NCBI RefSeq assembly: GCF_004104375.1
Contig: NZ_QOVM01000002.1
Span: forward strand, 558,001 to 622,000
Direction of reading: 5' to 3'
Origin: Leeuwenhoekiella aequorea
GTDB lineage: Bacteria; Bacteroidota; Bacteroidia; Flavobacteriales; Flavobacteriaceae
DNA: 64,000 nt
The position numbers and the translations under genes were made by a program. Numbering within the stretch: position 1 is the first letter of the stretch; every line of letters starts with the position of its first letter. The notes under the pieces were generated by a model that was not told the DNA's origin, did no database searches, and worked only from the letters and a program-made list of their open reading frames with translations. Positions 34,922 through 62,515 of this stretch are shown piece after piece.

Positions 34922-35023
34922 AAAGGCTAATGTGAAAATTATCTTAATTTTAATTTACATTTAATCGTACTTAATTGCTATTAAACGGTTAATATTGTAT
35001 TGTTAAAACTTATCCCAACTTTT

Positions 35024-38000
35024 ATGGTTAAAAAAATTACGCTATTAAGAAAGAGCATTTTACTGTCTTTCCTATTTATTAGTTTAGGATTTTCTACAGC
35101 AGCCTATGCACAATGTGCCGGCCAAGATGCCAATTTGAGTACCTGTAATAAAGAGGTAAACCAATTTATTGACCTGTTTGCAGCTTTAGGTGGAAGTCCA
35201 GAACGCGGAGGTACCTGGATAGATGTTGATAATACAGGTGGATTAAATGCAACTACTGGTATTCTAAATACGTGGCAAATAAGTAGTGGTGGTACATTTA
35301 GTTACACCTACACAAATGCAACGTGCTCACAAAGTGCTACAGTTACCCTAGCATTAGCCGGTTTTCCAGGACAAAGCAATATGCTTGCGGTTGCTTGTGA
35401 TGATAATACACGGGTTAATCTATTTCAATTTACCGGAGGTAGCCCTGCTGCTACCACTCCCGGAAACTGGATGCTTATTGACGTAAATAATGAGCGTGGC
35501 GATAATGTTACCACCATAAGTAATGCTCTTACAGGTCGCAATTTTAATGCTTTACAAGCAGGTACAGGTACTTATACATTTAGATATACAATTACTGATC
35601 AACCAGCTATAGATTGCCAGTCTAGTTCAGGATCAACTTCGTCGTTATCGAGTATGGTACGCCTGGAAGTATCCCCTGCACCAAACGCCGGAAATCTTGA
35701 TATTACGACAAAAACAATTTTCTGTGAAACAGACGATTTTAGCAGCCTGCGTAATTTTGATTTAAGAAATGTGATTGTAAATGAAGATGAAGGCGGTACG
35801 TGGACTGAATCTAGAACAAATGAAATTAGCAATGCTAATGATAGTTTTATAGATATTCAAAACATTAGAGATACTTACGGGGTAGGGATTTATTCTTTTA
35901 CATATACAGTAGAGCCTATTAATCAAATATGTAATGAAAGTGAGATAACAGTAGATATAGTTATTGAGCAAGTTGCAGATTTTAGAAACGCAACTTTAGA
36001 ATTTTCATTTCCAGAAGCCCTTGATGATGTAATTTGTGAAGATACACTTCCCATAAATCCTGTAGTTACCATCACAGGGGATATTGCAGATATTCCAAAT
36101 GGTGATTATGTAATGACCTACAGCGTAGGCACTGCTCCTAATACTGGAACAGAAATAATCACAGTGACTATGACTGATGGTATAGGTACATTTAATGCCA
36201 ATCCTTCATTTTTTACGGGAGTAGGAATTGCAGAACTGGCCATTACATCTATACAGGATCCTAATACAGAAGGTACTTGTATTTCTTACATAGGTGATTT
36301 AAGAGATACACTTACAATTATAGGTCTTCCTAATCTTTCAGATATTGCCTTAAGCGTTAATCAGCCATTATGTTTAGAGGAAGATGGTGTATTTAATTTA
36401 AGTGATGCAGGTACAACGCCAGAATTAGAACTTATCGATGGTTCTTATAGTTTTACCTATTCTTTAAGTAGTGGTGGTGTAGCAACAACGTATACGCAAA
36501 ATGCCGATGTAGTAAGCGGTATGGCATCTATAACTCTAGCGTCTAATGCACTTGCTACCGCCGATGATTATATTCTTACGCTACTCAACGTGACGAATGA
36601 TGCAGGCTGTAGTACAGATACTAGTGTAGAAACAAACTTTACTGTTAATCCTAAACCCAATGCGGAAACAATTGCAATAACTGTTACAGATGCTTGTGAA
36701 AATGATCTGGTTACTGTCACCATATCTGACTCTGCTGCAACACCTAATCTTATTGATGGAGTTTATGATTTCAATTATGAGATAAGCGGAGCAATTAACG
36801 CAACTAATCAAGTTGCAACCCAAGTTACTATCACTAATGGAACAGGATCTTTCGATTTACCTGCTACGCTTTTAGTAAACGGAGATTCAAGTTTGACCTT
36901 AGTGGGGATTGTGAATACGATAACTACTTGTGAAGCAGATAATCTGACAATATCAACTTCAGATTTCACAATTACACCTATTCCCGATGCCTCTAATGCA
37001 TTACTTGCATTTGCCGATATATGTGAAGACAATACAGGTTCATTACTTATAACTGCACCAGCTATAGAAATTCAAGATGGCACGTATACAGTTTTGTATG
37101 ACCTAAGTGGTGCCAATGCATCGAGTCAAAACCAATCTACAGTTACATTTACAGCTGGCGTTGGGACATTAGAAATACCTGCGGTACAATTAGAAAATGC
37201 CGGTACCAATACAATAACTATAACTAGCTTATCTACGAATGTCTTGAATTGTGAAGCAACAGGCTTACCACTTACTCAGGATTTTGAAATACTTCCTACT
37301 CCAGATCTTGAGTCCACAACGATAACAGCTACAGATATATGCTTAGGAGAAAATGGCCAAATACTTTTTTCTAATTCAAATCTTGCCGATGGTTCTTATG
37401 AAGTAGAATATGAATTAACTGGAGCCAATTTATATAGTAATCTTGAAACTGTTCAGTTTGTTCAAGGAAACGCCACCCTATCATTAGATGCATCTTTTTT
37501 AATGAATGATGGCAACACAACTTTTACTATTGAAGCCATTACTAACCCATTGTCTAATTGTGCAAATACCACTTTATATACAACTTCATTTACTATAAAT
37601 CCTATTCCTGAACTAGCTACTGAAAGTATAAACGCTTCAGATATATGTTTAGCAGAAAACGGACTAGTTAGTATTTCGAACGCTACAGGTCTTTCTGACG
37701 GAGATTATAGTATTACCTATGATCTATCAGGTTCAAATTCTTCAAGCAACCTTTCTGCATCAGTAACCGTTACTAATGGTTCTGGAGTTTTTGAAATACC
37801 AGCAACCGTATTAACTCAACTGGGGATTACAACTGTTACTATCACTGCAGTTACAAACTCAACAAGCTGTGCCCCTGGTACATTAAACATCAGTAATGAT
37901 TTTGAAATTTTTGATCTGCCTGATGCGACCGGTGTAACGTTAACAACAAATGATGTGTGTTTTGGAGAAGCTGTATCTATAGCTATCGATAACGCTTCTT

Positions 38001-38773
38001 CTCTCACAAATGCTAGCTATATGGTTACCTTTCAGTTAAGTGGTGCAAATACTACGCAAACTATTACTGCCGAACTAACATTTGTATCGGGTTCTGCAAA
38101 TCTTATACTTGATTCTGAATTACTTACAAATGCCGGTAATACTACTTTTGAAATCTTAGATATTCAAAATTTTACAACGTTATGTAGTGCTTCAAATTTA
38201 TCTGCAGCGCCGGTTCAATTTAATTTAGAAGATCCTGAAATTCCAACAATTAGTACTACAGGTTCTATTTTCTGTATAAATGATGATCCTACAGTGGCAG
38301 ACTTATTGGCAAATATAAATTCGTCTTTTGAAGTTCTTGTTTATGATGCACCTACAAATGGTAATTTAATTAGTTCAACTGCTTCTTTATCTGCAAATAC
38401 AACTTATTATTTTGCCGCGCAGAATACAAGCACCGGTTGTGAAAGTTCGCAGCGCTTAGCAGTTACAGCAGATTTAACTGGATGTGATTCAGTCTTTATT
38501 CCTGAAGGCTTCTCTCCTAACGGTGATGGAATAAATGATTTATTTGAAATGAAAAACATTGATATCATTTATCCCAACTATACAATCGAAATATTTAACC
38601 GAAATGGAAGCGTAGTTTTTAAGGGTAATGCTTCAATAGGACCTTGGAACGGTCAGGCAAATCAAAATCGCCTAGGTGGAAACACCCTTCCTAATGGAAC
38701 ATATTTCTACATCATCAATTACAATAACGGCCAAAAAAGTTCTAAACAAGGCAAAGTTTACTTAAACAGATAA
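35024..38773 (+). CDS. Very large T9SS-exported repeat protein with gliding-type C-terminal sorting domain
   Basis: About 1249 residues from the ATG at 35024; a TTG at 35000 is possible but gives a poor signal start. An N-terminal signal peptide ends at about AYAQ. The middle is a tandem array of about seven Ig-like repeats of roughly 100 residues, each with a D-x-C-x-x-(E/D/N) block (ATDICLGENG, ASDICLAENG, TNDVCFGEAV). The C-terminus is the CHU_C/gliding-associated domain: FIPEGFSPNGDGINDLF and later GTYFYIINYNNG. This is a type B T9SS signal, normally handled by a PorP/SprF protein encoded next door. Probably a surface adhesin. Confidence 0.9.
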   Translation: MVKKITLLRKSILLSFLFISLGFSTAAYAQCAGQDANLSTCNKEVNQFIDLFAALGGSPERGGTWIDVDNTGGLNATTGILNTWQISSGGTFSYTYTNATCSQSATVTLALAGFPGQSNMLAVACDDNTRVNLFQFTGGSPAATTPGNWMLIDVNNERGDNVTTISNALTGRNFNALQAGTGTYTFRYTITDQPAIDCQSSSGSTSSLSSMVRLEVSPAPNAGNLDITTKTIFCETDDFSSLRNFDLRNVIVNEDEGGTWTESRTNEISNANDSFIDIQNIRDTYGVGIYSFTYTVEPINQICNESEITVDIVIEQVADFRNATLEFSFPEALDDVICEDTLPINPVVTITGDIADIPNGDYVMTYSVGTAPNTGTEIITVTMTDGIGTFNANPSFFTGVGIAELAITSIQDPNTEGTCISYIGDLRDTLTIIGLPNLSDIALSVNQPLCLEEDGVFNLSDAGTTPELELIDGSYSFTYSLSSGGVATTYTQNADVVSGMASITLASNALATADDYILTLLNVTNDAGCSTDTSVETNFTVNPKPNAETIAITVTDACENDLVTVTISDSAATPNLIDGVYDFNYEISGAINATNQVATQVTITNGTGSFDLPATLLVNGDSSLTLVGIVNTITTCEADNLTISTSDFTITPIPDASNALLAFADICEDNTGSLLITAPAIEIQDGTYTVLYDLSGANASSQNQSTVTFTAGVGTLEIPAVQLENAGTNTITITSLSTNVLNCEATGLPLTQDFEILPTPDLESTTITATDICLGENGQILFSNSNLADGSYEVEYELTGANLYSNLETVQFVQGNATLSLDASFLMNDGNTTFTIEAITNPLSNCANTTLYTTSFTINPIPELATESINASDICLAENGLVSISNATGLSDGDYSITYDLSGSNSSSNLSASVTVTNGSGVFEIPATVLTQLGITTVTITAVTNSTSCAPGTLNISNDFEIFDLPDATGVTLTTNDVCFGEAVSIAIDNASSLTNASYMVTFQLSGANTTQTITAELTFVSGSANLILDSELLTNAGNTTFEILDIQNFTTLCSASNLSAAPVQFNLEDPEIPTISTTGSIFCINDDPTVADLLANINSSFEVLVYDAPTNGNLISSTASLSANTTYYFAAQNTSTGCESSQRLAVTADLTGCDSVFIPEGFSPNGDGINDLFEMKNIDIIYPNYTIEIFNRNGSVVFKGNASIGPWNGQANQNRLGGNTLPNGTYFYIINYNNGQKSSKQGKVYLNR

Positions 38774-45247: not shown

Positions 45248-48200
45248 ATGAAAATAAGATTACTTCTTTCTTTTTTAGCAGTATCGCTAAGCATGTTTGG
45301 TCAACAGGTTAATCTCGACCTTTTAAAAAATATTAAACCCCGAAGTGTAGGCCCTGCTGGTATGAGTGGTCGAATTACCGCAATTGATGCCGTTACAAAT
45401 AATCCCGATATTATTTACGCGGGTTCTGCAAGCGGTGGTATTTGGAAATCAACTTCTGGGGGTGTAACCTGGAAGCCTATTTTTGAAAATGAAGCTACGG
45501 CTTCTATAGGAGCAGTGGCAATACAGCAATCAAATCCAGCTGTAGTTTGGGCAGGTACCGGTGAAGGAAACCCGCGTAACAGTCTTAATGGTGGATTCGG
45601 AATTTATAAAACGCTTGACGGTGGCAAAACATGGAAATGTATGGGATTAGAAAACACGCGCCATATATATAGGGTGCGTATTAATCCTTCAAATCCAGAT
45701 ATTGTCTATGCCGCCGCTATAGGCTCTCCTTGGGGAGAACATGAAGAACGTGGTGTGTATCGCACAATCGATGGCGGTAAAAACTGGGAAAAAATTCTCT
45801 ATGTGGATCAAAAAACCGGCGCAGGCGAATTAATTATGGATCCTACTAATTCCAATAAACTTATTGCTGCAATGTGGCAGCATAAGAGAGATCCTTGGTT
45901 CTTCAATAGTGGTGGTCCAGGATCTGGATTATACATTACTTATGACGGTGGAGATACCTGGAAAGAAATCACATCACAAAATGGTTTACCAGAAGGAGAT
46001 TTAGGACGTATGGGTCTTGCCATTGCTCCAAATAAACCAAATATCGTCTACGCCTACATAGAATCTAAGAAAAACGCATTGTACAGATCTAACGATGGCG
46101 GTGAAAACTGGAAGAAAGTAAATGATAATATGGATGAGATAGGAAATCGTCCTTTCTATTATGCCGAAATCTATGTCGCCCCTAACAATGAAAATCGTGT
46201 CTATACTGTATTTACATATATTAATGTATCTGAAGATGGTGGTGCAAGTTTTAATGAACTAATGCCGGCTTACGGTGTTGAGAATGGTGTTCACCCAGAT
46301 CATCACGCCTGGTATATACATCCTACAAACGCAGATTTTATGATAGATGGTAATGATGGAGGATTAAATATTACCCGTGATGGCGGAAAGTCTTGGCGCT
46401 TTGCGGAAAATATTCCGGTAGGTCAATTTTATCATATTGCTGTTGACAATGAATTTCCATACAATGTTTATGGAGGAATGCAAGACAATGGAAGCTGGAG
46501 AGGACCAGCTTACGTCTGGAAAGATCAAGGAATACGCAATGCCTACTGGCAGGAAATATCGTTTGGTGATGGTTTTGATGTAGTACCAGATCGCGATAAT
46601 TCACAGTATGGATGGTCTATGAGTCAGCAAGGATACGTGAGCAGATATGACCACATTACAGGAAATAACTATTCTGTGCGTCCTACACATCCAGACCCTG
46701 AAGTAGAACTAAGATTTAACTGGAATGCTGCTATTAATAGTGATCCTTTTGATAACAGCACATTGTATTTTGGGAGTCAGTTTGTGCATAAATCAACAGA
46801 TAAAGGTCTTACTTGGAAAGTTATATCGCCAGATCTAACCACCAATAATCCTGAAAAGCAAAAGCAAAGCGAGAGCGGGGGTCTTACAATGGATGCTACC
46901 GGTGCAGAAAATCATACGACAATACTTGTAATTGAGCCTTCTCCAGTAGAAAAGGATATGCTATGGACGGGTTCTGATGACGGTAAAGTATTTTATACGT
47001 TAAATGGTGGTACAAGCTGGACAGATGTATCAAAAAATATTAAAGGTCTTCCCGAAGGTAGCTGGATAGCTCAAATAAAAGCTTCTGCCACAAATAAAGG
47101 TGAAGCCTTGCTTGTAGCCAATAATTACCGCCGTTTTGATTACAAACCCTATGCATACCGTACTACTGATTATGGTAAAACATGGAAAAGCTTGGTTAAA
47201 GCGGAAGATGTAGGCAGTTATACACTTTCTATTTTAGAAGATAAAATTCAGCCCAAGCTTATGTTTTTAGGTACAGACGATGGACTCTATATAAGTTTTA
47301 ATGCAGGTGCAAACTGGCAAAAATGGACTAATGGTTTTCCAACCGTTCCTGTAAAAGATATGGTTATTCAAGAGCGTGAAGATGATCTTGCGATTGCAAC
47401 ATTTGGGAGATCTATCTGGGTGCTAGATGATCTTAAACCTTTGAGAGCATTGGCAAATGACACCCAATTAGTCACAAAAATGAATTCTTCAGAATCACCG
47501 GTACTCGAAGTATTCCCCACTCCCCTGACCTATCAAAATGCTTCTCAACAACCTACCGGAAGTAGATTTGGAGCAGATGCTACTTTCAACGGACAAAATC
47601 GACCCGGCGGTGCTCACATAAAATATCTTTTCATCCCTAATAAAGATGTCAAGAAAGACTCAGTAAAAAACGAGTCTTTGGAAAATACTATTCAATGGGA
47701 TAGTATCACCTTAAATATCTATGACGGATCACAATTAATACGCACTTTAAAAACTAAGTCACCAGATAGTGCAGGTACGTATACGATGAGATGGAATATG
47801 GATGAAAAAGGCAGCGACAGACCCTCCCGCACGTTACGTGAACGTACTTCAGAAGCTGGTGGTGTTTCTGTAAAACCGGGAAGCTATAGAATCGTTATGA
47901 ATTATGGCGATCTAGAAGATGAACAATCTATTACCGTTAAAAGCGATCCAAGATTAACTATTTCATCAGAGGCAATTAAAGAAATTTATACCGCTCAGAA
48001 AAATTTAGAACAGATGATTCAAATTTCTGCTGATGCTGTAAAACAATTGGTCGAAAGTAAAAACATTGCTAAAGGGTATATAACTGATCTTAAAAAATTA
48101 GATAAGAAAAGATATGAAGCACAAATAGATAGTTCGACAGCAATTGTAAAAACAATCGACAGTAAAATTGCTTTATTTTTAGGGAATGAAGATGACAGAC

Positions 48201-48448
48201 AGGGAATTACACGCAATAAGGAGGTCACTGTGTTGAATCGTATATATGAAGCAAACAGCTATGTAAGAAGTAGACCTAATGGAATAACTAAAACGGAAAC
48301 TATTCTTATAAAGCAAGCTAAAGACGAACTTAATAATGCACTTCAAACCGTCAATTCGTTTTTTAATGAAGAATGGATCTCCTATAAGAATGAGATGCAA
48401 CAGTTAGAAATTGATCCTTTTAAAGAGGTTAAAATTTTTCAGCTTTAA
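45248..48448 (+). CDS. Secreted VPS10/sortilin-like Asp-box repeat protein
   Basis: 1066 residues with a signal peptide (cleaved near residue 18). The body has about nine Asp-box-like turns of the form S/T-x-D-G-G-x-T-W (LDGGKTWK, IDGGKNWE, YDGGDTWK, NDGGENWK, RDGGKSWR, TDYGKTWK), giving a large beta-propeller. The C-terminal 300 residues are beta-rich and helical and include DPRLTISSEAIKEI. Often annotated as glycosyl hydrolase or BNR protein, but no catalytic residues are obvious; peptidase- or ligand-binding roles are possible. Monocistronic with a terminator. Confidence 0.85.
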   Translation: MKIRLLLSFLAVSLSMFGQQVNLDLLKNIKPRSVGPAGMSGRITAIDAVTNNPDIIYAGSASGGIWKSTSGGVTWKPIFENEATASIGAVAIQQSNPAVVWAGTGEGNPRNSLNGGFGIYKTLDGGKTWKCMGLENTRHIYRVRINPSNPDIVYAAAIGSPWGEHEERGVYRTIDGGKNWEKILYVDQKTGAGELIMDPTNSNKLIAAMWQHKRDPWFFNSGGPGSGLYITYDGGDTWKEITSQNGLPEGDLGRMGLAIAPNKPNIVYAYIESKKNALYRSNDGGENWKKVNDNMDEIGNRPFYYAEIYVAPNNENRVYTVFTYINVSEDGGASFNELMPAYGVENGVHPDHHAWYIHPTNADFMIDGNDGGLNITRDGGKSWRFAENIPVGQFYHIAVDNEFPYNVYGGMQDNGSWRGPAYVWKDQGIRNAYWQEISFGDGFDVVPDRDNSQYGWSMSQQGYVSRYDHITGNNYSVRPTHPDPEVELRFNWNAAINSDPFDNSTLYFGSQFVHKSTDKGLTWKVISPDLTTNNPEKQKQSESGGLTMDATGAENHTTILVIEPSPVEKDMLWTGSDDGKVFYTLNGGTSWTDVSKNIKGLPEGSWIAQIKASATNKGEALLVANNYRRFDYKPYAYRTTDYGKTWKSLVKAEDVGSYTLSILEDKIQPKLMFLGTDDGLYISFNAGANWQKWTNGFPTVPVKDMVIQEREDDLAIATFGRSIWVLDDLKPLRALANDTQLVTKMNSSESPVLEVFPTPLTYQNASQQPTGSRFGADATFNGQNRPGGAHIKYLFIPNKDVKKDSVKNESLENTIQWDSITLNIYDGSQLIRTLKTKSPDSAGTYTMRWNMDEKGSDRPSRTLRERTSEAGGVSVKPGSYRIVMNYGDLEDEQSITVKSDPRLTISSEAIKEIYTAQKNLEQMIQISADAVKQLVESKNIAKGYITDLKKLDKKRYEAQIDSSTAIVKTIDSKIALFLGNEDDRQGITRNKEVTVLNRIYEANSYVRSRPNGITKTETILIKQAKDELNNALQTVNSFFNEEWISYKNEMQQLEIDPFKEVKIFQL

Positions 48449-54239: not shown

Positions 54240-55571
54240 ATGCTTCAATTTATCACAAAAGTTAAACTCATATTTAATAATATCACCGGTAAAATAGGTT
54301 TTTATCCTTCACTATTTGCCTTTGGAGGTCTTTGTTTAGGTTTTATAATGCTTTATGCAGAAAGTCAAGGCATTTCAAAATTTCTCATAGAAAACGCGCC
54401 TAAATTAGTCATTAATGATGCAGATACTGCCCGTACGCTACTAAGTACTTTTATAGGTGGCATAATATCACTTATGGTATTTAGTTTTTCTATGGTAATG
54501 ATATTACTCAATCAAGCTTCTAATAATTATTCACCCAGAATTCTGCCCGGTTTAATATCAAACAAAAGACATCAGTACGTTTTAGGATACTACATAGCTA
54601 CATTAATCTACTGCATTCTTGTTCTACTAAGTATTAAACCTACAGATAACAAATATCAGCTTCCAGGTTTTTCGGTACTTATAGGAATAATACTGAGTAT
54701 GCTGGTACTGGCATTGTTTATCTATTTTATCCATTCAATTTCTGAAGCCATTCAGATTAATAAGATAATTGAAACTATTTATCAAAAAGCAAAGCTTCGC
54801 CTTACAGAACTCACAAGTCAAACTGATGAAGAATATAGCCAGGAAGATTTTCCGGATAGCGAAGACTGGAATATTATCCGTATTGATAAAACAGGCTATC
54901 TTCAAACCATAGCGACTAATGCCCTACTAGAATTTTGTGATGAAGCTAATTGCAAAGTTGAACTCTTGGTAGCAAAAGGCACTTTTATATTAAAGAATAT
55001 TCCTATTGTAAAATGTAATATAGAACTCGATGAAAAACAACAAGATCAATTATTTACTTGCTTTGGTTTCTCCCGAAGCGAGATCGTAACTCATAATTAT
55101 GTATTAGGATTTAAACAGCTCACTGAAATTGCAATTAAAGCAATGAGTCCTGGGATTAATGATCCTGGCACTGCGATTACCTGTATAGATTACTTGTCAG
55201 AATTGTTTGCTCTAAGACTATGTAAAAAGGATTTCAGTTATTTTAAAAATAAAGATAATCAAGCGGTAATAAGTTTAAGAACTATAAATTTTAAAGAGCT
55301 TATTTACTTTGTATTTGTACCCTTACGCATTTATTGTAAACATGATATAATAATGCTGCACAAGATGCTTACTGCCTTGTATTTCTTATTGCAAAGCGAA
55401 AGTGTAATCGATGATGCTCAGGAAATCATTATTAATGAGGCTAACTTAATTTTGCAAGATGCAAAGCAAAGTATCACAAATGAAGAAGATCTAAGCGGCG
55501 TATTTGCAATACGTGAGAAAATTGCTGCGATAAATACCACGACTATAGAGCTTGTAGCATTAAACCCTTAG
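54240..55571 (+). CDS. DUF2254 membrane protein
   Basis: 443 residues with four predicted transmembrane helices near residues 18-38, 62-88, 110-130 and 140-165, followed by a soluble region. The conserved DUF2254 signature PGINDPGTAITCIDYLSE is present at about residue 308, as is VFSFSMVMILLNQASNNYSP in TM2. Function is not established. Its 3' end overlaps the LytTR gene by 4 bp in the convergent orientation. Confidence 0.9.
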   Translation: MLQFITKVKLIFNNITGKIGFYPSLFAFGGLCLGFIMLYAESQGISKFLIENAPKLVINDADTARTLLSTFIGGIISLMVFSFSMVMILLNQASNNYSPRILPGLISNKRHQYVLGYYIATLIYCILVLLSIKPTDNKYQLPGFSVLIGIILSMLVLALFIYFIHSISEAIQINKIIETIYQKAKLRLTELTSQTDEEYSQEDFPDSEDWNIIRIDKTGYLQTIATNALLEFCDEANCKVELLVAKGTFILKNIPIVKCNIELDEKQQDQLFTCFGFSRSEIVTHNYVLGFKQLTEIAIKAMSPGINDPGTAITCIDYLSELFALRLCKKDFSYFKNKDNQAVISLRTINFKELIYFVFVPLRIYCKHDIIMLHKMLTALYFLLQSESVIDDAQEIIINEANLILQDAKQSITNEEDLSGVFAIREKIAAINTTTIELVALNP

Positions 55572-56326
55572 GATAGCCACAATTTAAAGTCCTTTACGCG
55601 TTCTCTACTCACAATGATATCTTGATCTGAACAGGATTTCAATTTTACCTGCAGTCGGGAATTTGTATAACTTACAATATCCTCTATCGCTTTTATATTT
55701 ACAAAGTACTTTCGGCTTACTCTAAAAAATTGATCTGGTGCTAGTTCATCTTCCAAAAGCTCTAGCGTGGTATCCAGTAGATAGTCGCGTTGTTCCCGTG
55801 TACGTGCGTATGTCCCTTTATTTTCGCTATATAAACAAACAATATCTTCAACATTAATTAGCTTTATATGCTGCCCGATTTTAACGGTAAAACGTTTTTT
55901 ATAATCTCGCTCCACCGGATTGATACCTAATAATTTTCGGATATCATCAAAATTCACCTTTACATCTGCCTGAACAGGATTTTGTTTTTTAAATTTTAAT
56001 ACCGCATTTTCCAATTCTTCATCATCTATAGGCTTTAACAAATAATCAATACTATTTAATTTAAAAGCTTGTAGCGCATATTCATCATAAGCAGTAGTAA
56101 ATATTATAGCACTCGTTACAGTAACGGCATCAAAAATCTCAAATGATAAACCATCACTTAATTGTATATCCAAGAATATTAAATCTGGATGAGAATTATT
56201 TGTAAACCAGGTTATGGCTTCTTCTACTGAGTTTAACTGTGCCAGAACATTTAAATCTAAAGCTTCCAGCATTCGAGTAAGACGCCTTGCAGCAGGTTTT
56301 TCATCCTCAATAACAAGTACATTCAT
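55568..56326 (-). CDS. LytTR-family response regulator
   Basis: 252 residues. The receiver domain has acidic residues near positions 7-9 (EDE) and the phospho-acceptor D53 (LIFLDIQ), with TTAYDEYALQAF and KPI (Lys about 108) completing the site. The C-terminal LytTR DNA-binding domain includes CLYSENKGTYARTREQRDYL and FRVSRKYFVN. It is the last of five genes in the LytS/2TM operon, and pairs with the histidine kinase at 57121-58458. Confidence 0.93.
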   Translation of the reverse strand: MNVLVIEDEKPAARRLTRMLEALDLNVLAQLNSVEEAITWFTNNSHPDLIFLDIQLSDGLSFEIFDAVTVTSAIIFTTAYDEYALQAFKLNSIDYLLKPIDDEELENAVLKFKKQNPVQADVKVNFDDIRKLLGINPVERDYKKRFTVKIGQHIKLINVEDIVCLYSENKGTYARTREQRDYLLDTTLELLEDELAPDQFFRVSRKYFVNIKAIEDIVSYTNSRLQVKLKSCSDQDIIVSRERVKDFKLWLS

Positions 56327-57120: not shown

Positions 57121-58458
57121 TTAGTTATCCGTTTTCTTATCCATTAGTTCTCTAATTTTTCGGGCTTCCCAGTTCTTGCCTAGAAATAGATTGTAATTAA
57201 ACACTTCAGCACCGTGAAAAAATAATCCCAATCCCCATCCTAATGCGGGAAATATCGACCAGGGAAATGAGGTGCTGTATAAATTTAAACCTATGAGTAT
57301 AGGAATAATCAAACAATAGAGCCCCAGATTTATATAGAAACCCTTTAGTTTTTCTACGTGTTCTTTAGCGAGAGCATATTTTTTCTCTGATAAGTAATTT
57401 TGAGTATTCATAACAGGTTGTTTTAATTGATGAGTTAACAGCGGTATTTTCACTATAAATTCTTCTGAGTTTTGCTCAATAAGTATAGTACGCGTTGAAA
57501 GCAGCGCATAACGTTGTCTAATATTTATAAGTCCTACGCCACTACTTTTTGCAATTATTTTTTTTGGCTGAAGATTATTACTAATAACCAGATAGTTATC
57601 AACTTCTTTGATTGTGATATGTAATTTGTATAAATCACTTACTACATTATGCTTCACAGCATTTTCTAAAAGAAGCTGCAATGCCAGTGGTACTACCTTT
57701 GCGGCAGAATTAATGGCCTTATCCGGTATTGAGAATACAATACTATCTTCATAACGCATTTTTAAAAGTGTCATATACGTTTTAGCAAAAGCCAACTCCT
57801 CATCTATTGCTATGAGTTCTTTATTTTTTTGCTCCAGAACATATCTATAAACCTTAGAAAGCGAGGTAGTAAATTTTTGTGCCTGCTGCGGATTTTCTTC
57901 AATTAGACTGGTAAGTACATTCAAACTATTAAAAAGAAAATGCGGATCTAATTGGTTTTTTAATGCATCAAATTGAGCTGATGCAGTACCTGCGATAATT
58001 TTCTGTTCCTTAACTTGTCGATCTTTCTTGTAGCGATAATAGAAAAAAGAATAGAATATAATATTACAAACTAACGCTATGAATATAGGAATCCAGTATT
58101 CAGAAAATGATTCCTCTTGTACAAAGAGTACGACATCAATATCTTGAGTAATTGATTTTATAAAAATTCTTACCAGAAATATCCCAACCACAGTTACTAG
58201 TAAACTTGCAATTATGGCTTTATAAAGATGTTTTAAAGAATAAAGCTTATCAACGTGCTTTTTAAAGAAATATCTAAATACAGCCATATTAAGCATATAC
58301 AACGCGACTGAATAAAGGAGACTCTGTAAAAAGTCTATTACAAGATTACTATCTATTCTTAATGTATTACCTAACGCGAGATGTATTGCTAGAAAAACAA
58401 GATAGATTGCAATACCTACGACTAGAGCTTTCCCAAACTCTTTTAAAATGTTATTCAT
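57121..58458 (-). CDS. LytS-type sensor histidine kinase with fused C-terminal 2TM domain
   Basis: 445 residues. Hydrophobic segments near 12-31, 44-62, 79-102 and 122-140 form the membrane part. The kinase core has LKNQLDPHFLFNSLNVLTSL with phospho-acceptor H173, and VPLALQLLLENAVKHNV as the N-box of the HATPase. After about residue 350 a 2TM domain begins (MNTQNYLSEKKYALAKEHVE, FPALGWGLGLFFHGAEVF, KNWEARKIRELMDKK). The junction is in frame without a stop, so this is one fused protein unless M350 is a separate start. It should phosphorylate the LytTR regulator of the same operon. Confidence 0.92.
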   Translation of the reverse strand: MNNILKEFGKALVVGIAIYLVFLAIHLALGNTLRIDSNLVIDFLQSLLYSVALYMLNMAVFRYFFKKHVDKLYSLKHLYKAIIASLLVTVVGIFLVRIFIKSITQDIDVVLFVQEESFSEYWIPIFIALVCNIIFYSFFYYRYKKDRQVKEQKIIAGTASAQFDALKNQLDPHFLFNSLNVLTSLIEENPQQAQKFTTSLSKVYRYVLEQKNKELIAIDEELAFAKTYMTLLKMRYEDSIVFSIPDKAINSAAKVVPLALQLLLENAVKHNVVSDLYKLHITIKEVDNYLVISNNLQPKKIIAKSSGVGLINIRQRYALLSTRTILIEQNSEEFIVKIPLLTHQLKQPVMNTQNYLSEKKYALAKEHVEKLKGFYINLGLYCLIIPILIGLNLYSTSFPWSIFPALGWGLGLFFHGAEVFNYNLFLGKNWEARKIRELMDKKTDN

Positions 58459-58849: not shown

Positions 58850-61800
58850 ATGTTACATAAAAAAATACTTCGGGTATTATCGTTTGCAATTAGTTTAATG
58901 ATTATAATTTCCTGTGCCAGCAAACGCACACAATACCTAGATACTAAAACTAAGACTATTACTACAACAGGTGATACTTCGTCATATCGAAGCGTTTATT
59001 TAATGGGAAATTTGGGCTCAAGCAAAAGTGGGCCGAATAAAAAATTAATTTCTGCCTTTGATAGTGTGCAAAGCAGCAACGCAAGCAAAGAAGATTACTT
59101 GGTTATTCTGGGAGACAATATTTATGCAAATGCTTTAAAGAAAGGAACAAACGAGGAACAACTAGAACAGAGCATCTCGTTAATCAAATCTTTTAATGGA
59201 GAGACGCTTGTAATTCCGGGAGAAAATGAATGGAATGATAAAGGTGCAAAAGGTGTAGAAAAAATTGAAGATTATATTGAAAGTAAAATTGGTAAAGACA
59301 ATCACTTTCAACCAGAAAATGGTTGTCCATTAGAAACAATAACTGTTGATGATGAAACCGAAATCATTATTGTAGACTCCCAGTGGTATATTGAAGATTG
59401 GAGTAAACATCCAAATTTTAATGATAAATGTGCCATAAAAACGCGTACTCAATTAATTACAGCTTTAAAAGACGAAGCCAGAAAAGCTAGACATAAAAAT
59501 ATTTTGCTTGTTATGCATCATCCACTATTCTCAAATGGGATTTATGGTGGTGAAATGAGTACACGATCATTATATAAACCTTCCGCAGAAAATGCCTTTA
59601 TTCCCCTGGCTGGATTTGGTTGGGCTTTTATGAGAACCCAGGGTGGATTATCAAAGCAAGATCAGTTTAATCCATTAATGAATGACCTAATGCGTGAGAT
59701 CAAAAAAATGGCCATTGATCTTCCCAGACTTTTTGTACTTTCTGCTCACGAACGCTCACAGCAATATATCGTAAATAAAAATATACGCCAGATTATTTCT
59801 GGTACAGGTAGTAAAACGGAATATGCTCGCTTAGGAAAAGATGGATATTTTTCTTCGGTAGCTCCTGGTTTTACCGAGTTGCGTCTCTTCAAAAACGGAT
59901 CATCAACCGTTCATTATTATACACTTGAACAAAATAAATTAGTCGAGAAATTTTCTAAAGTAGCATTTGCGCAGCCTAAACCTTTTCCCTTAGATTCATT
60001 ACCTGCTAACTTTTCAAAATTTGAATCCGCTCGAATTTACCCAACAGAGACCGTTAAGGTAACCCCAGAATTTGAAGAGAAATGGGGCAAACACTACAGA
60101 GATTTATATGGAGTTGAAATTAAAGCACCAGTCGCGATATTAGATACGCTGTATGGCGGACTTCAAGTAGAGCGAGCCGGAGGAGGAAATCAAACCCAAT
60201 CTTTACGTTTGGTAGATAAAGATGACAAAGAATACAATATGCGAGCTTTAGCAAAAGATCCTTTTGCCTTTTTAAAATCATCTGGATATGATGATTTGGA
60301 CGCACAAGCTTATTTTAAAGGTACACTTCCCGCCCAATTGATAGAAGACTTTTATACTGCAGCTCATCCTTATGGAGCTTTTGCAATCCCTAAACTAGCA
60401 GGTGCTGCAAATTTAAATCATACGCATCCTAAAGTTTTTTATGTACCTAAACAGCCTCGATTAGGAGATTTTAATCATAGTCATGGAGATCGTTTATATA
60501 TGATCGTAGAAAAGCCAGATTCTGATTTTAATGGCGATCATATGTTTGGCTTTAATGAAGATGTAGAAAGTACCTCAGATCTTTTTGAAGCAATACGTGA
60601 AGATGAAAAAAATCGAGTCGATGAGCTAGAATATATACGAGCGCGGGTTTTTGATATGCTTGTAGGAGATTGGGATCGCCACGAAGATCAATGGCGCTGG
60701 GCAGAGCAAAAAGACAGTTCGGGAGTTGCCCATTATATTGCAATCCCAAGAGATAGAGATCAGGTGTTTTCAAAATTTGATGGAAAAATCATTAAAAAAC
60801 TACAGAAATTTATGCCCAGCACTCGCGAACTGGCAAACTACGGTCCTGATATTGAATTTATAGAAAAATTTAGTGAAAGTGCCATAAATCTCGATCGTGC
60901 TGTATTGCAACGTACTTCAAAAAAAGAATGGCTTGATGCAGTAGTATATATTCAAGAAAACATAACCCCAGCAGTGGTGGCAAAGGCCTTTAAAGATATG
61001 CCAGAAGAAGTTCAGGATGAAAACTGGAAAAATATTCAGGAAGATTTACTGAAACGAAAAGCGAATTTAAAAGCAATTGTAGAGCGCTATTATGACTACT
61101 ACATAAGATTTCAGACCTTAAAAGGTACCGATAAGGATGATCACTTTTATATAAATCGCAATTTAGACGGTACAACTCAAATAAAGGCTTATCGCATAGA
61201 GGATGGAAAAGATGGTGCTTTGCTTTTTGACCGCCTTTTTAATCCTAAAGAAACAAAGGAGATTTGGATTTATGGGCTAGATGATGACGATCGTTTTACC
61301 ACCACAGGTGATGCAAAAAGTAAAATTAAACTTGTGATTGCAGGTGGGCAAAATGATGATATTTATGACTTACAGAATGGAAATAATCTTACCGTTTATG
61401 ATCAACCAAAAGGGAATAAAATTGAAAAAAATAAAGGTGCTCGAGTACGATTTAGTTCGGTTTATGAGAACCATATTTATGATACCGAAAGACTCCCTTC
61501 TGAAGCAAAACAAGTAGGTTTAAATGTTTCTTATAATCCAGATTGGGGAGTAGCTCCACATCTAATTATTAAACGTCAAAAATTAGGATTTGAGCGCAAT
61601 CCGTTTACATCACAATTTGTAGCTGATGTACACTATTTTTCATTAATGCAAGCAGCACAATTTAAAGGTGAAGTTCATTTTTCAAATATTTTTCCGGAGT
61701 GGAATTTTAAAATTTCAGGATTAGCAACTACAAATAATTACACTGAAAACTTTTTTGGCTTCGGAAATAAAACCCAAAATAACGCAGCCCATTTTGATCA

Positions 61801-62515
61801 AAATCGCATAAATATGCAAAAATTTGAAGGTGGCGCAGGTGTGTATTATAACGGAGAATATGGTAGTTCATTTGAGGCGTCTTTTAACTACCAGCAATAT
61901 AACCTTGATCAATCACTTTTACTCAACAACTACAACCATCTGAATTCTAACAATTATGCAACTTTAAAATCTATTTATTCCTACACGAGTTTAGATCAAG
62001 AAAAATTTCCTACACGAGGTATGCTTTTTGAGGCTTCAGGATTTTATAGTGATAATCTGGACAACCGAGAAACAGTCTTTGCTACAGATCCAAAACTTAT
62101 CTTTTGGAACGCGATAGATTCCTCCAGAGATCTTATTTTAAAAACCCAAATAGATGCCGCACTTCGATTTGGAAATGATATCCCTTTTTATCAAGCAGCA
62201 AAATTAGGTGGTAATTCAGGTTTACGAAGTTATCGTTTAGGAAGATTTACAGGCGATCAAATGTTGCATTCTTCAGTAGATTTATTATATCAAATTAAGC
62301 CAATTAAAACGGCTTTATTTCCTATTCGATCGCATCTGTATTTAGGATACGATTTAGGTAGAGTTTGGTTGAATAATGAAGATTCAAATCGATGGCATGA
62401 CAGTTACGGTGGAGGTGTGAATTTTAGTATTGGAGAATTTCTATCTAGTAGCTTTGGATACTTTACCGGTTCGGAAGGGGGGCGTCTTCAGTTTGCTCTA
62501 AAATTTGGTGCATAA
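58850..62515 (+). CDS. Multidomain outer-membrane lipoprotein: phosphoesterase-like, kinase-like and beta-barrel parts
   Basis: 1221 residues. A lipobox-like signal (IIISC, C22) opens the protein. Residues 45-340 resemble the metallophosphoesterase fold, with LGDN (88-91) and HHP (223-225) intact, but GNLG (53-56), GENE (124-127) and AHER (299-302) replace the GDxG, GNHD and GHxH that family members normally use. Residues about 430-800 contain LYGGLQVERAGGG, a K/RxxxxKD strand (RALAKD) and GDWDRH (606-611) followed by AIPRDRDQVF, similar to the catalytic and metal-binding segments of FAM20/HipA-like kinases. The last 350 residues form a BamA/TamA-like outer-membrane barrel. Promoter directly upstream. 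Confidence 0.75.
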   Translation: MLHKKILRVLSFAISLMIIISCASKRTQYLDTKTKTITTTGDTSSYRSVYLMGNLGSSKSGPNKKLISAFDSVQSSNASKEDYLVILGDNIYANALKKGTNEEQLEQSISLIKSFNGETLVIPGENEWNDKGAKGVEKIEDYIESKIGKDNHFQPENGCPLETITVDDETEIIIVDSQWYIEDWSKHPNFNDKCAIKTRTQLITALKDEARKARHKNILLVMHHPLFSNGIYGGEMSTRSLYKPSAENAFIPLAGFGWAFMRTQGGLSKQDQFNPLMNDLMREIKKMAIDLPRLFVLSAHERSQQYIVNKNIRQIISGTGSKTEYARLGKDGYFSSVAPGFTELRLFKNGSSTVHYYTLEQNKLVEKFSKVAFAQPKPFPLDSLPANFSKFESARIYPTETVKVTPEFEEKWGKHYRDLYGVEIKAPVAILDTLYGGLQVERAGGGNQTQSLRLVDKDDKEYNMRALAKDPFAFLKSSGYDDLDAQAYFKGTLPAQLIEDFYTAAHPYGAFAIPKLAGAANLNHTHPKVFYVPKQPRLGDFNHSHGDRLYMIVEKPDSDFNGDHMFGFNEDVESTSDLFEAIREDEKNRVDELEYIRARVFDMLVGDWDRHEDQWRWAEQKDSSGVAHYIAIPRDRDQVFSKFDGKIIKKLQKFMPSTRELANYGPDIEFIEKFSESAINLDRAVLQRTSKKEWLDAVVYIQENITPAVVAKAFKDMPEEVQDENWKNIQEDLLKRKANLKAIVERYYDYYIRFQTLKGTDKDDHFYINRNLDGTTQIKAYRIEDGKDGALLFDRLFNPKETKEIWIYGLDDDDRFTTTGDAKSKIKLVIAGGQNDDIYDLQNGNNLTVYDQPKGNKIEKNKGARVRFSSVYENHIYDTERLPSEAKQVGLNVSYNPDWGVAPHLIIKRQKLGFERNPFTSQFVADVHYFSLMQAAQFKGEVHFSNIFPEWNFKISGLATTNNYTENFFGFGNKTQNNAAHFDQNRINMQKFEGGAGVYYNGEYGSSFEASFNYQQYNLDQSLLLNNYNHLNSNNYATLKSIYSYTSLDQEKFPTRGMLFEASGFYSDNLDNRETVFATDPKLIFWNAIDSSRDLILKTQIDAALRFGNDIPFYQAAKLGGNSGLRSYRLGRFTGDQMLHSSVDLLYQIKPIKTALFPIRSHLYLGYDLGRVWLNNEDSNRWHDSYGGGVNFSIGEFLSSSFGYFTGSEGGRLQFALKFGA

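Follow-up and report, generated by a model that had tools for sequence, protein, structure and literature searches.

A widespread Bacteroidota family of putative outer-membrane proteins with a predicted kinase fold and an Omp85 barrel, and a paralogue with an altered metallophosphoesterase core

The closest described proteins are fusions of a metallophosphoesterase (MPE) domain with an Omp85 barrel, which were catalogued in 2014 as the 'Metallo' subfamily (Heinz and Lithgow 2014, PMC4104836). As in the family studied here, a PF00149 domain is fused to an Omp85 barrel, and both likely represent the same group of proteins. In the available part of that article, the domain is named a metalloprotease, 'Metallo' is not among the clusters listed as having predicted POTRA domains, the word 'kinase' is absent from the main text, and altered-motif paralogues are not discussed. 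The terms 'kinase', 'phosphatase' and 'metallophos' are absent from PMC12611786 and PMC12045153, as are 'outer membrane' and 'metallophos' from PMC12599244. A metallophosphoesterase of R. anatipestifer (Niu 2021), which appears among T9SS effectors in a table of another paper, was not counted as a characterised member. In the literature searched on Omp85, polyphosphate-kinase and HipA/CtkA/FAM20/CotH topics in Bacteroidota, no description of the kinase-fold part of MPE-Omp85 proteins was found; papers among the matches dealt with an alphaproteobacterium and with Legionella kinases. An earlier note on this DNA had called the combination of domains rarely described; this seems to hold for the kinase-fold domain, but not for the MPE-Omp85 pairing, which was already known. 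Outside the cytoplasm of bacteria, only a small number of kinases are known, and the extracytoplasmic kinases of the FAM20 and CotH types serve as precedent. Plasmodium GAP50 is a protein with an MPE fold that is anchored in a membrane and is not known to act as a phosphatase.

The window, i.e. the whole stretch of DNA analysed, comprises 64,000 nucleotides of Leeuwenhoekiella aequorea (assembly GCF_004104375.1, contig NZ_QOVM01000002.1, positions 558,001 to 622,000, forward strand). The features of the gene under study are collected in Table 1. The reading frame, the lipobox and the motifs GNLG, GENE, AHER, GDWDRH and AIPRDRDQVF were found where the earlier note had placed them. In a Pfam scan, the window protein matched no family. 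A similar N-terminal cysteine was identified in many relatives from the Flavobacteriaceae, with the N-termini judged by eye; a crude lipobox pattern matched 36/72 and 7/19 rows and missed clear cases.

Table 1. Features of the gene in the window (positions are those of the 64,000-nucleotide stretch; aa, amino acids)
Feature	Position	Strand	Basis or content
Complete CDS, ATG start, frame open, 1221 aa	58850..62515	+	Lipobox, MPE-type domain, kinase-fold domain, beta-rich linker, Omp85 barrel
Signal peptide and lipobox, Cys22 (IISCAS)	58850..58915	+	Sequence
MPE-type domain, residues 45-380, core altered	58982..59989	+	Alignment to PF00149-positive relatives; GAP50 Foldseek match of full model
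N54 replacing motif I Asp (GNLG 53-56)	59009..59011	+	Alignment
Motif II, D89-N90 intact (GDN 88-90)	59114..59119	+	Alignment
Motif III, GENE 124-127: E125 for Asn, N126 for His	59219..59230	+	Alignment
Motif IV, His224 intact (HHP 223-225)	59519..59521	+	Alignment
Motif V, AHER 299-302: His300 retained, R302 for His	59744..59755	+	Alignment
Predicted kinase-fold domain, residues about 400-753	60047..61108	+	AlphaFold model of residues 385-855; Foldseek matches CtkA, HipA, Golgi casein kinase
Glycine-rich loop GGGNQ 444-448	60179..60193	+	Sequence, relatives' alignment
Lys469, invariant, candidate nucleotide-binding lysine	60254..60256	+	91/91 full-length rows
Catalytic-loop motif GDWDRHEDQW 606-615 (GDWDRH 606-611)	60665..60694	+	D607, H611 91/91; D609 89/91; register with CtkA
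Candidate metal-binding segment AIPRDRDQVF 631-640	60740..60769	+	D635, D637 91/91
Beta-strand-rich linker, residues about 754-880	61109..61489	+	Secondary structure of models
16-strand Omp85-type barrel, residues about 884-1221	61499..62512	+	Model; BamA/TamA matches

By its sequence relatives, the window protein belongs to a widespread modular family spanning the Bacteroidota. Matches, partial ones included, were found in 91 of 120 genomes of the same taxonomic family (the window's own among them) and in 136 of 296 genomes of the phylum sample, and the reading as a lone fusion was rejected on these counts. The genome of L. aequorea itself contains three paralogues including the window protein, one of which, L002, has an intact MPE core. 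The combination of domains is not confined to the window protein, and the damage to the MPE domain marks certain paralogues. Since relatives with the kinase domain alone and with the MPE domain alone exist, the two halves are separable. The form consisting of kinase domain and barrel is also present in a Parabacteroides record. For the comparison of residues, 91 full-length rows covering several Bacteroidota classes were used, a non-random sample of the best matches and hand-picked distant ones. Eight open reading frames that were truncated where their locus ended had been excluded, as had a duplicate of the window.

The middle segment had been proposed to resemble FAM20/HipA-type kinases, and structure prediction led to the same fold. 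The AlphaFold model of residues 385-855 reached a mean pLDDT of 91.9 and a pTM of 0.92, and Foldseek matched it to CtkA (E 7.8e-7), HipA (2wiu, E 5.8e-6) and Golgi casein kinase (E 2.3e-4), with modest TM-scores (0.33 over the query and 0.52 over CtkA). The middle domain of the window protein is accordingly modelled as a CtkA/HipA/FAM20-type kinase fold. CtkA was also found at E 0.0022 by a profile of the kinase-fold domain, with the catalytic motif in register. Eleven of 19 tallied kinase-domain positions, which were picked from a list of conserved positions, are identical in all 91 rows (G445, R465, K469, D500, P507, D602, D607, H611, D635, D637 and G645), and the position of D609 is Asp in 89 rows and Gly in two. 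The role of D609 as the catalytic aspartate is presumed from the register with CtkA, and we take K469 to be the nucleotide lysine and D635 and D637 to be metal-binding aspartates. Where CtkA and HipA carry the catalytic-loop Asn, 89 rows have Gln (Gln614 in the window protein) and two have Asn. The kinase motif, called intact in the earlier note, is invariant or near-invariant across relatives, more than chance would give. In two of eight kinase-plus-barrel relatives, the motif residues are missing from the alignment.

The C-terminal barrel recognised from the sequence was recovered in the model with 16 strands, and Foldseek matched it to BamA (E 1.4e-11) and TamA (E 1e-9). For NCBIfam Omp85_fam, the window protein scores 42.9 bits versus a cutoff of 200, and the relative L073 lies above the PF01103 cutoff (40.2 versus 24). 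In the RGY/RGF loop, a functional motif of Omp85 barrels, the family consensus is GLRGYR and the window reads GLRSYR. Neither the window protein nor any of seven relatives gave a POTRA match in a Pfam scan, and other domains occupy the region before the barrel; Omp85 proteins without an N-terminal extension exist, according to the available part of Heinz and Lithgow (2014, PMC4104836). The window protein would probably be held by an N-terminal lipid anchor, with its soluble domains on the periplasmic side. The residues ASKRTQ after Cys22 contain no acidic signal of the type which we take to direct surface export in Bacteroidota; this argues against a delivery by the barrel, of the kind proposed for PlpD, in which the soluble domains would reach the surface and act outside the cell. 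Such a delivery, a possibility raised for the 'Metallo' subfamily in the part of PMC4104836 available, is considered improbable here.

Outside the order of the window, a family gene is found no more than 6 kb from a polyphosphate kinase gene (PPK1) in 18 of 81 genomes, where about 0.6 are expected; the 16-kb limit in the linkage test was set after the data had been seen. The 81 genomes consist of 38, of which 17 have PPK1 within 6 kb, and 43 added ones with one further case, while 22 of the 103 matching genomes outside the order were left out as weak, barrel-only or unlisted matches. The linkage is weaker at 18/81 than at 17/38 and still far above expectation. Family genes of relatives are also linked to a phytase-like/SdiA-regulated propeller. 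PPK1 was not found beside the window copy: the two PPK1 genes of the genome are about 110 kb away from that copy and 130 kb away from the third paralogue. Among the 25 loci with wide flanks from the window's order, none contained a PPK1 gene.

With an Omp85 barrel in its usual orientation, the kinase domain would lie in the periplasm, and the main objection to the kinase reading is that this compartment is ATP-poor. This scarcity, the replacement of the catalytic Asn by Gln in nearly all rows and the linkages of the relatives to PPK1 and the propeller would also suit a pseudokinase or binding domain, with phosphate, polyphosphate or a nucleotide as possible ligands, whose outer-membrane protein would serve in phosphate sensing or scavenging. 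However, the Lys, Asp and His of the site are identical in every row across several classes, which is beyond the expected need of simple binding, and this alternative is regarded as possible but rather doubtful. A more specific version of the kinase reading, which we consider unlikely, would tie the family as an outer-membrane kinase/phosphatase module to the polyphosphate pathway: a periplasmic envelope protein or glycan would be phosphorylated using polyphosphate or an exported donor instead of cytosolic ATP, and repeated loss of the phosphatase half would yield kinase-biased paralogues like the window gene.

For the MPE half, PF00149 matched neither the window protein nor the relative L003; it was passed by the relatives L002, L073, L104 and L105, all of which align over the MPE domain of the window. 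GAP50 (3tgh) is an MPE-fold match of the full AlphaFold model among the 50 Foldseek matches listed. Because they align with GDxG, GNHD/E and GHEH-type motifs that are intact in relatives, the changes in the window represent substitutions at active-site columns. Four of the seven core residues differ from the intact rows (N54, E125, N126 and R302), in agreement with the earlier claim that at least three metal-binding or catalytic residues are changed. The two intact motifs, GDN 88-90 and HHP 223-225, had been omitted there. Among the literature listings, no functional class known to carry this set of substitutions was found.

All seven core residues are kept in 68 of the 91 full-length members, which ties the damage to particular paralogue lineages; in the remaining 23, at least two residues are lost. 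On a quick tree of kinase domain and barrel, the core changes its state six times, at least five of these changes being forced by branches with an SH-aLRT of 95 or more, and four changes are needed versus six when the two longest branches are removed. The altered domain has dN/dS values of 0.025, 0.105 and 0.057 in three of six Leeuwenhoekiella orthologue pairs, the other three being saturated, and is under purifying selection in the three unsaturated pairs. The full frame and the neighbouring genes are preserved in the window and in five Leeuwenhoekiella records. Both observations disfavour a decaying gene, to which the altered motifs might point, and this explanation can practically be discarded.

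Of the 23 altered rows, 17 have lost both the Asp of motif I and the final His of motif V, yet keep D89, H224 and H300. This retention and the purifying selection would be in line with an altered domain that is still an enzyme, with one metal bound in a half-site of D89, E125, H224 and H300. Against it, 21 of the 23 altered rows no longer have the His of motif III and four no longer have D89, and a one-metal enzyme is held to be quite unlikely. From its residues and the selection acting on it, the MPE half of the window protein is most likely a pseudo-phosphoesterase, binding or regulating rather than cleaving.

Taken as a whole, the explanation which we favour by a slight degree predicts a periplasm-facing outer-membrane protein with the kinase-fold half as the candidate catalyst and the MPE half as a pseudo-phosphoesterase. 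Members with both sites intact would most likely attach phosphate or a related group to an envelope substrate and take it off again. The window copy is a paralogue whose MPE half no longer has the Asp of motif I, the Asn and His of motif III and the last His of motif V, which would leave the kinase-fold half with its conserved site as the candidate catalyst. If this is true, a kinase-fold domain conserved at the outer membrane throughout the Bacteroidota and joined to a phosphoesterase, in some families encoded beside a polyphosphate kinase gene, would point to a control of the cell envelope by phosphorylation. That the phosphoesterase core has been lost repeatedly while the kinase site was kept is a natural experiment which makes the question testable.

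Among the known systems, GAP50 has an MPE fold like that of the full model, but is eukaryotic and has neither a kinase fold nor a barrel. Membership in CotH (PF08757), considered from a D..H..N/DxD pattern, was dropped, because the profile-profile alignment lay off the active site; one of 77 members matched CotH at E 0.042. HipA kinases (PF07804) have a similar kinase fold, and their NxDDHxxN is in register with DWDRHxxQ of the family. They differ in that the profile-profile comparison is not significant (E 0.21); a PF07804 scan left the window protein unmatched and gave weak matches in three of 77 members (best E 0.045). CtkA from Helicobacter pylori (3akj, 3akk, 3akl) is the top fold match and the better of two weak PDB sequence-profile matches, and its GNFDRHNGNW aligns with GDWDRHEDQW of the window. 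However, the identity in the fold alignment is 12%, CtkA has no MPE domain or barrel, and it carries Asn where the family has Gln. For the FAM20-type Golgi casein kinase (4kqb), the fold matches the kinase domain of the window protein.

In the 1221-aa product of the window gene, the motifs GNLG (residues 53-56), GENE (124-127) and AHER (299-302), together with the other motifs listed in an earlier note, were found in place. A Pfam scan of the protein and a PDB sequence search each gave no match at E up to 1, and the sole NCBIfam match was Omp85, sub-threshold, at residues 1031-1192. The architecture, with a metallophosphoesterase (MPE)-type domain, a kinase fold and a barrel, is nearly certain. 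The full model, which spans residues 22-1221 with a mean pLDDT of 88.4 and a pTM of 0.84, contained 16 barrel strands, and the lipobox and the Omp85 orientation suggest that the soluble domains are periplasmic.

The kinase-type middle segment claimed in that note was borne out by the predicted structure of residues 385-855 (mean pLDDT 91.9, pTM 0.92), for which Foldseek identified 34 PDB matches at E up to 0.001. CtkA ranked first (7.8e-7), followed lower down by HipA (2wiu, 5.8e-6), Rio2, Golgi casein kinase and PI4KII-alpha; the TM-scores were modest, as expected for remote kin. Two PDB sequences matched a 77-member profile with E no higher than 10: CtkA at 0.0022 and, at 0.27, an unrelated protein. 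The CtkA segment DTLLGNFDRHNGNW was aligned with the family's DmligDwDrhedqW. Eleven of 19 conserved kinase positions tallied were invariant in 91 full-length rows, and D609 varied in two. Neither the HipA_C nor the CotH profile claims this family. Taken together with the fold and profile matches and the conserved site, this shows that the domain is folded like a kinase and forms its own family. It may also work like one; the odds lean slightly towards a putative catalytic role, the difficulty being the donor in the periplasm.

In the catalytic loop of the MPE-altered relatives L083 and L087, Gly stands in for D609 and Asn for Q614. The kinase Lys and Asp residues were kept in 14 of 16 shorter relatives; the exceptions, L091 and L109, are kinase and barrel proteins in whose alignment the kinase motif residues are absent, possibly the opposite kind of loss to that in the MPE-altered copies.

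For the MPE half, the alteration noticed earlier was confirmed: the window copy lacks four of seven tallied core residues, all of which are intact in 68 of the 91 full-length rows, while at least two were lost in the other 23. All tested intact-motif relatives (L002, L073, L104 and L105) passed the PF00149 threshold. Among the 23 altered rows, which within one clade are not independent of one another, Asp 54 was kept in one, His 126 and His 302 in two each, and Asn 125 in seven; D89, H224 and H300 were kept in 19, 23 and 21. In 17 of 23, positions 54 and 302 were both lost with D89, H224 and H300 all kept. By MPE chemistry this eliminates metal site 1 as well as the catalytic His and spares most of metal site 2, a pattern that looks unlike random decay. 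On a quick tree built on kinase and barrel columns, without the MPE, the altered or intact label required six changes, at least five of them being forced by branches with SH-aLRT of at least 95. Enlargement by 18 copies (109 rows, 30 altered) again gave six changes, at least five of them forced, and four when the two longest branches were omitted from the count. We infer that the direction was loss, not gain, and the MPE domain of the window copy is likely inactive.

Tandem triplets in the order altered-intact-altered were identified in four genomes (L111, L112, L113 and L114), altered/intact pairs at four more loci and likewise at two Dokdonia loci. An intact copy was also present in 14 of the 16 sampled genomes in which an altered copy was seen; none was seen in G295 and G347, in a phylum-sample search scoring two candidates per genome. 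For the altered MPE domain, three of six pairs gave usable dN/dS values, namely 0.025, 0.105 (with dS only 0.09) and 0.057, and the other three were saturated. In those usable pairs the kinase domain gave 0.021, 0.040 and 0.038; intact MPE domains gave 0.022 and 0.023 (two usable pairs of five).

The window's genome contains three family copies, and eight further relatives were identified by record: five from Leeuwenhoekiella (70-76%), two from Dokdonia (53%) and one from Aquimarina (39%). Counting partial ones, matches were present in 91 of 120 genomes from the same family and in 136 of 296 from the phylum sample. Among 72,556 plasmid records, a relative was present in five, annotated as hypothetical protein in four and without a feature in one. 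An N-terminal hydrophobic anchor was apparent by eye in seven of eight kinase-alone relatives. One of these (L108:3945-6507) lies directly upstream of a PycTM-domain gene, which ties kinase and PycTM without MPE or barrel.

Copies and forms of the family, features of the window, and neighbours at 77 compared loci
Feature	Position or occurrence	Strand	Description
Window gene	58850-62515	+	1221 aa
L002, paralogue	contig 7		40% identical to window gene
L003, paralogue	contig 3		35% identical to window gene
Histidine kinase	57121-58458	-	C-terminal 2TM domain
LytTR response regulator	55568-56326	-	
CHU_C protein	35000-38773	+	1257 aa; type IX secretion domain
Sortilin-Vps10/BNR-repeat protein	45248-48448	+	1066 aa
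Full form			about 1240 aa; MPE, kinase, barrel
Kinase and barrel form			about 870 aa
Kinase-alone form			about 430-500 aa
MPE-alone form	4 seen		387-426 aa
HD-PycTM or PycTM membrane protein	44 loci		
Phytase-like/SdiA-regulated propeller	43 loci		two clusters, 23 and 20
Roughly 790-aa protein	24 loci		at best weak GAF match
PPK1	18 loci		
Histidine-phosphatase-type protein	10 loci		

Of the 77 loci, 76 fall with the family gene on clustering and L107 is MPE-only, L094 and L149 being one place; neighbour clusters were named from few scanned members each, and for polyphosphate kinase (PPK1) all eight scanned exceeded the TIGR03705 cut-off. In a genome-wide count outside the window's order, 18 of 81 genomes, spread over 10 of their 22 families, had PPK1 no more than 6 kb from a family gene, where copy number and genome size would predict about 0.55. 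Leaving out the cases that prompted the test (G340, G330, G410, G269, where the gene near PPK1 is the MPE-only form, and G283) gave 13 of 76. Within 16 kb, a limit set after the data were seen, the count was 35 of 81 versus 1.2 expected, with one family (f23) supplying most of the extra cases. The linkage thus occurs in many families yet is not the rule, since 63 of 81 genomes have no PPK1 at 6 kb. At ten loci outside the window's order (L092, L094, L097, L131, L133, L135, L158, L159, L163 and L165), family genes lie near PPK1 with varying combinations of histidine-phosphatase-type, HD-PycTM and phytase-like propeller genes. This gathering may represent an undescribed phosphate-related cluster.

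Within the window's order, none of 25 loci had PPK1 in the cluster, while the HD-PycTM gene was still present at 22 and the propeller at 20. The window copy itself has left the cluster; its neighbours, common to five Leeuwenhoekiella records, are the 2TM-histidine kinase, the LytTR regulator and a rhodanese/lactamase-B protein. Two small proteins lie between the histidine kinase and the regulator and group with that kinase by sequence.

The literature searched yielded no account of the kinase domain, of the fact that MPE-altered paralogues retain it, or of the linkage to PPK1. The MPE-Omp85 fusion is already known from PMC4104836. Among the 50 structural matches listed for the full model, GAP50 represents the MPE fold, and the model also matches BamA, TamA and F. 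johnsoniae BamA.
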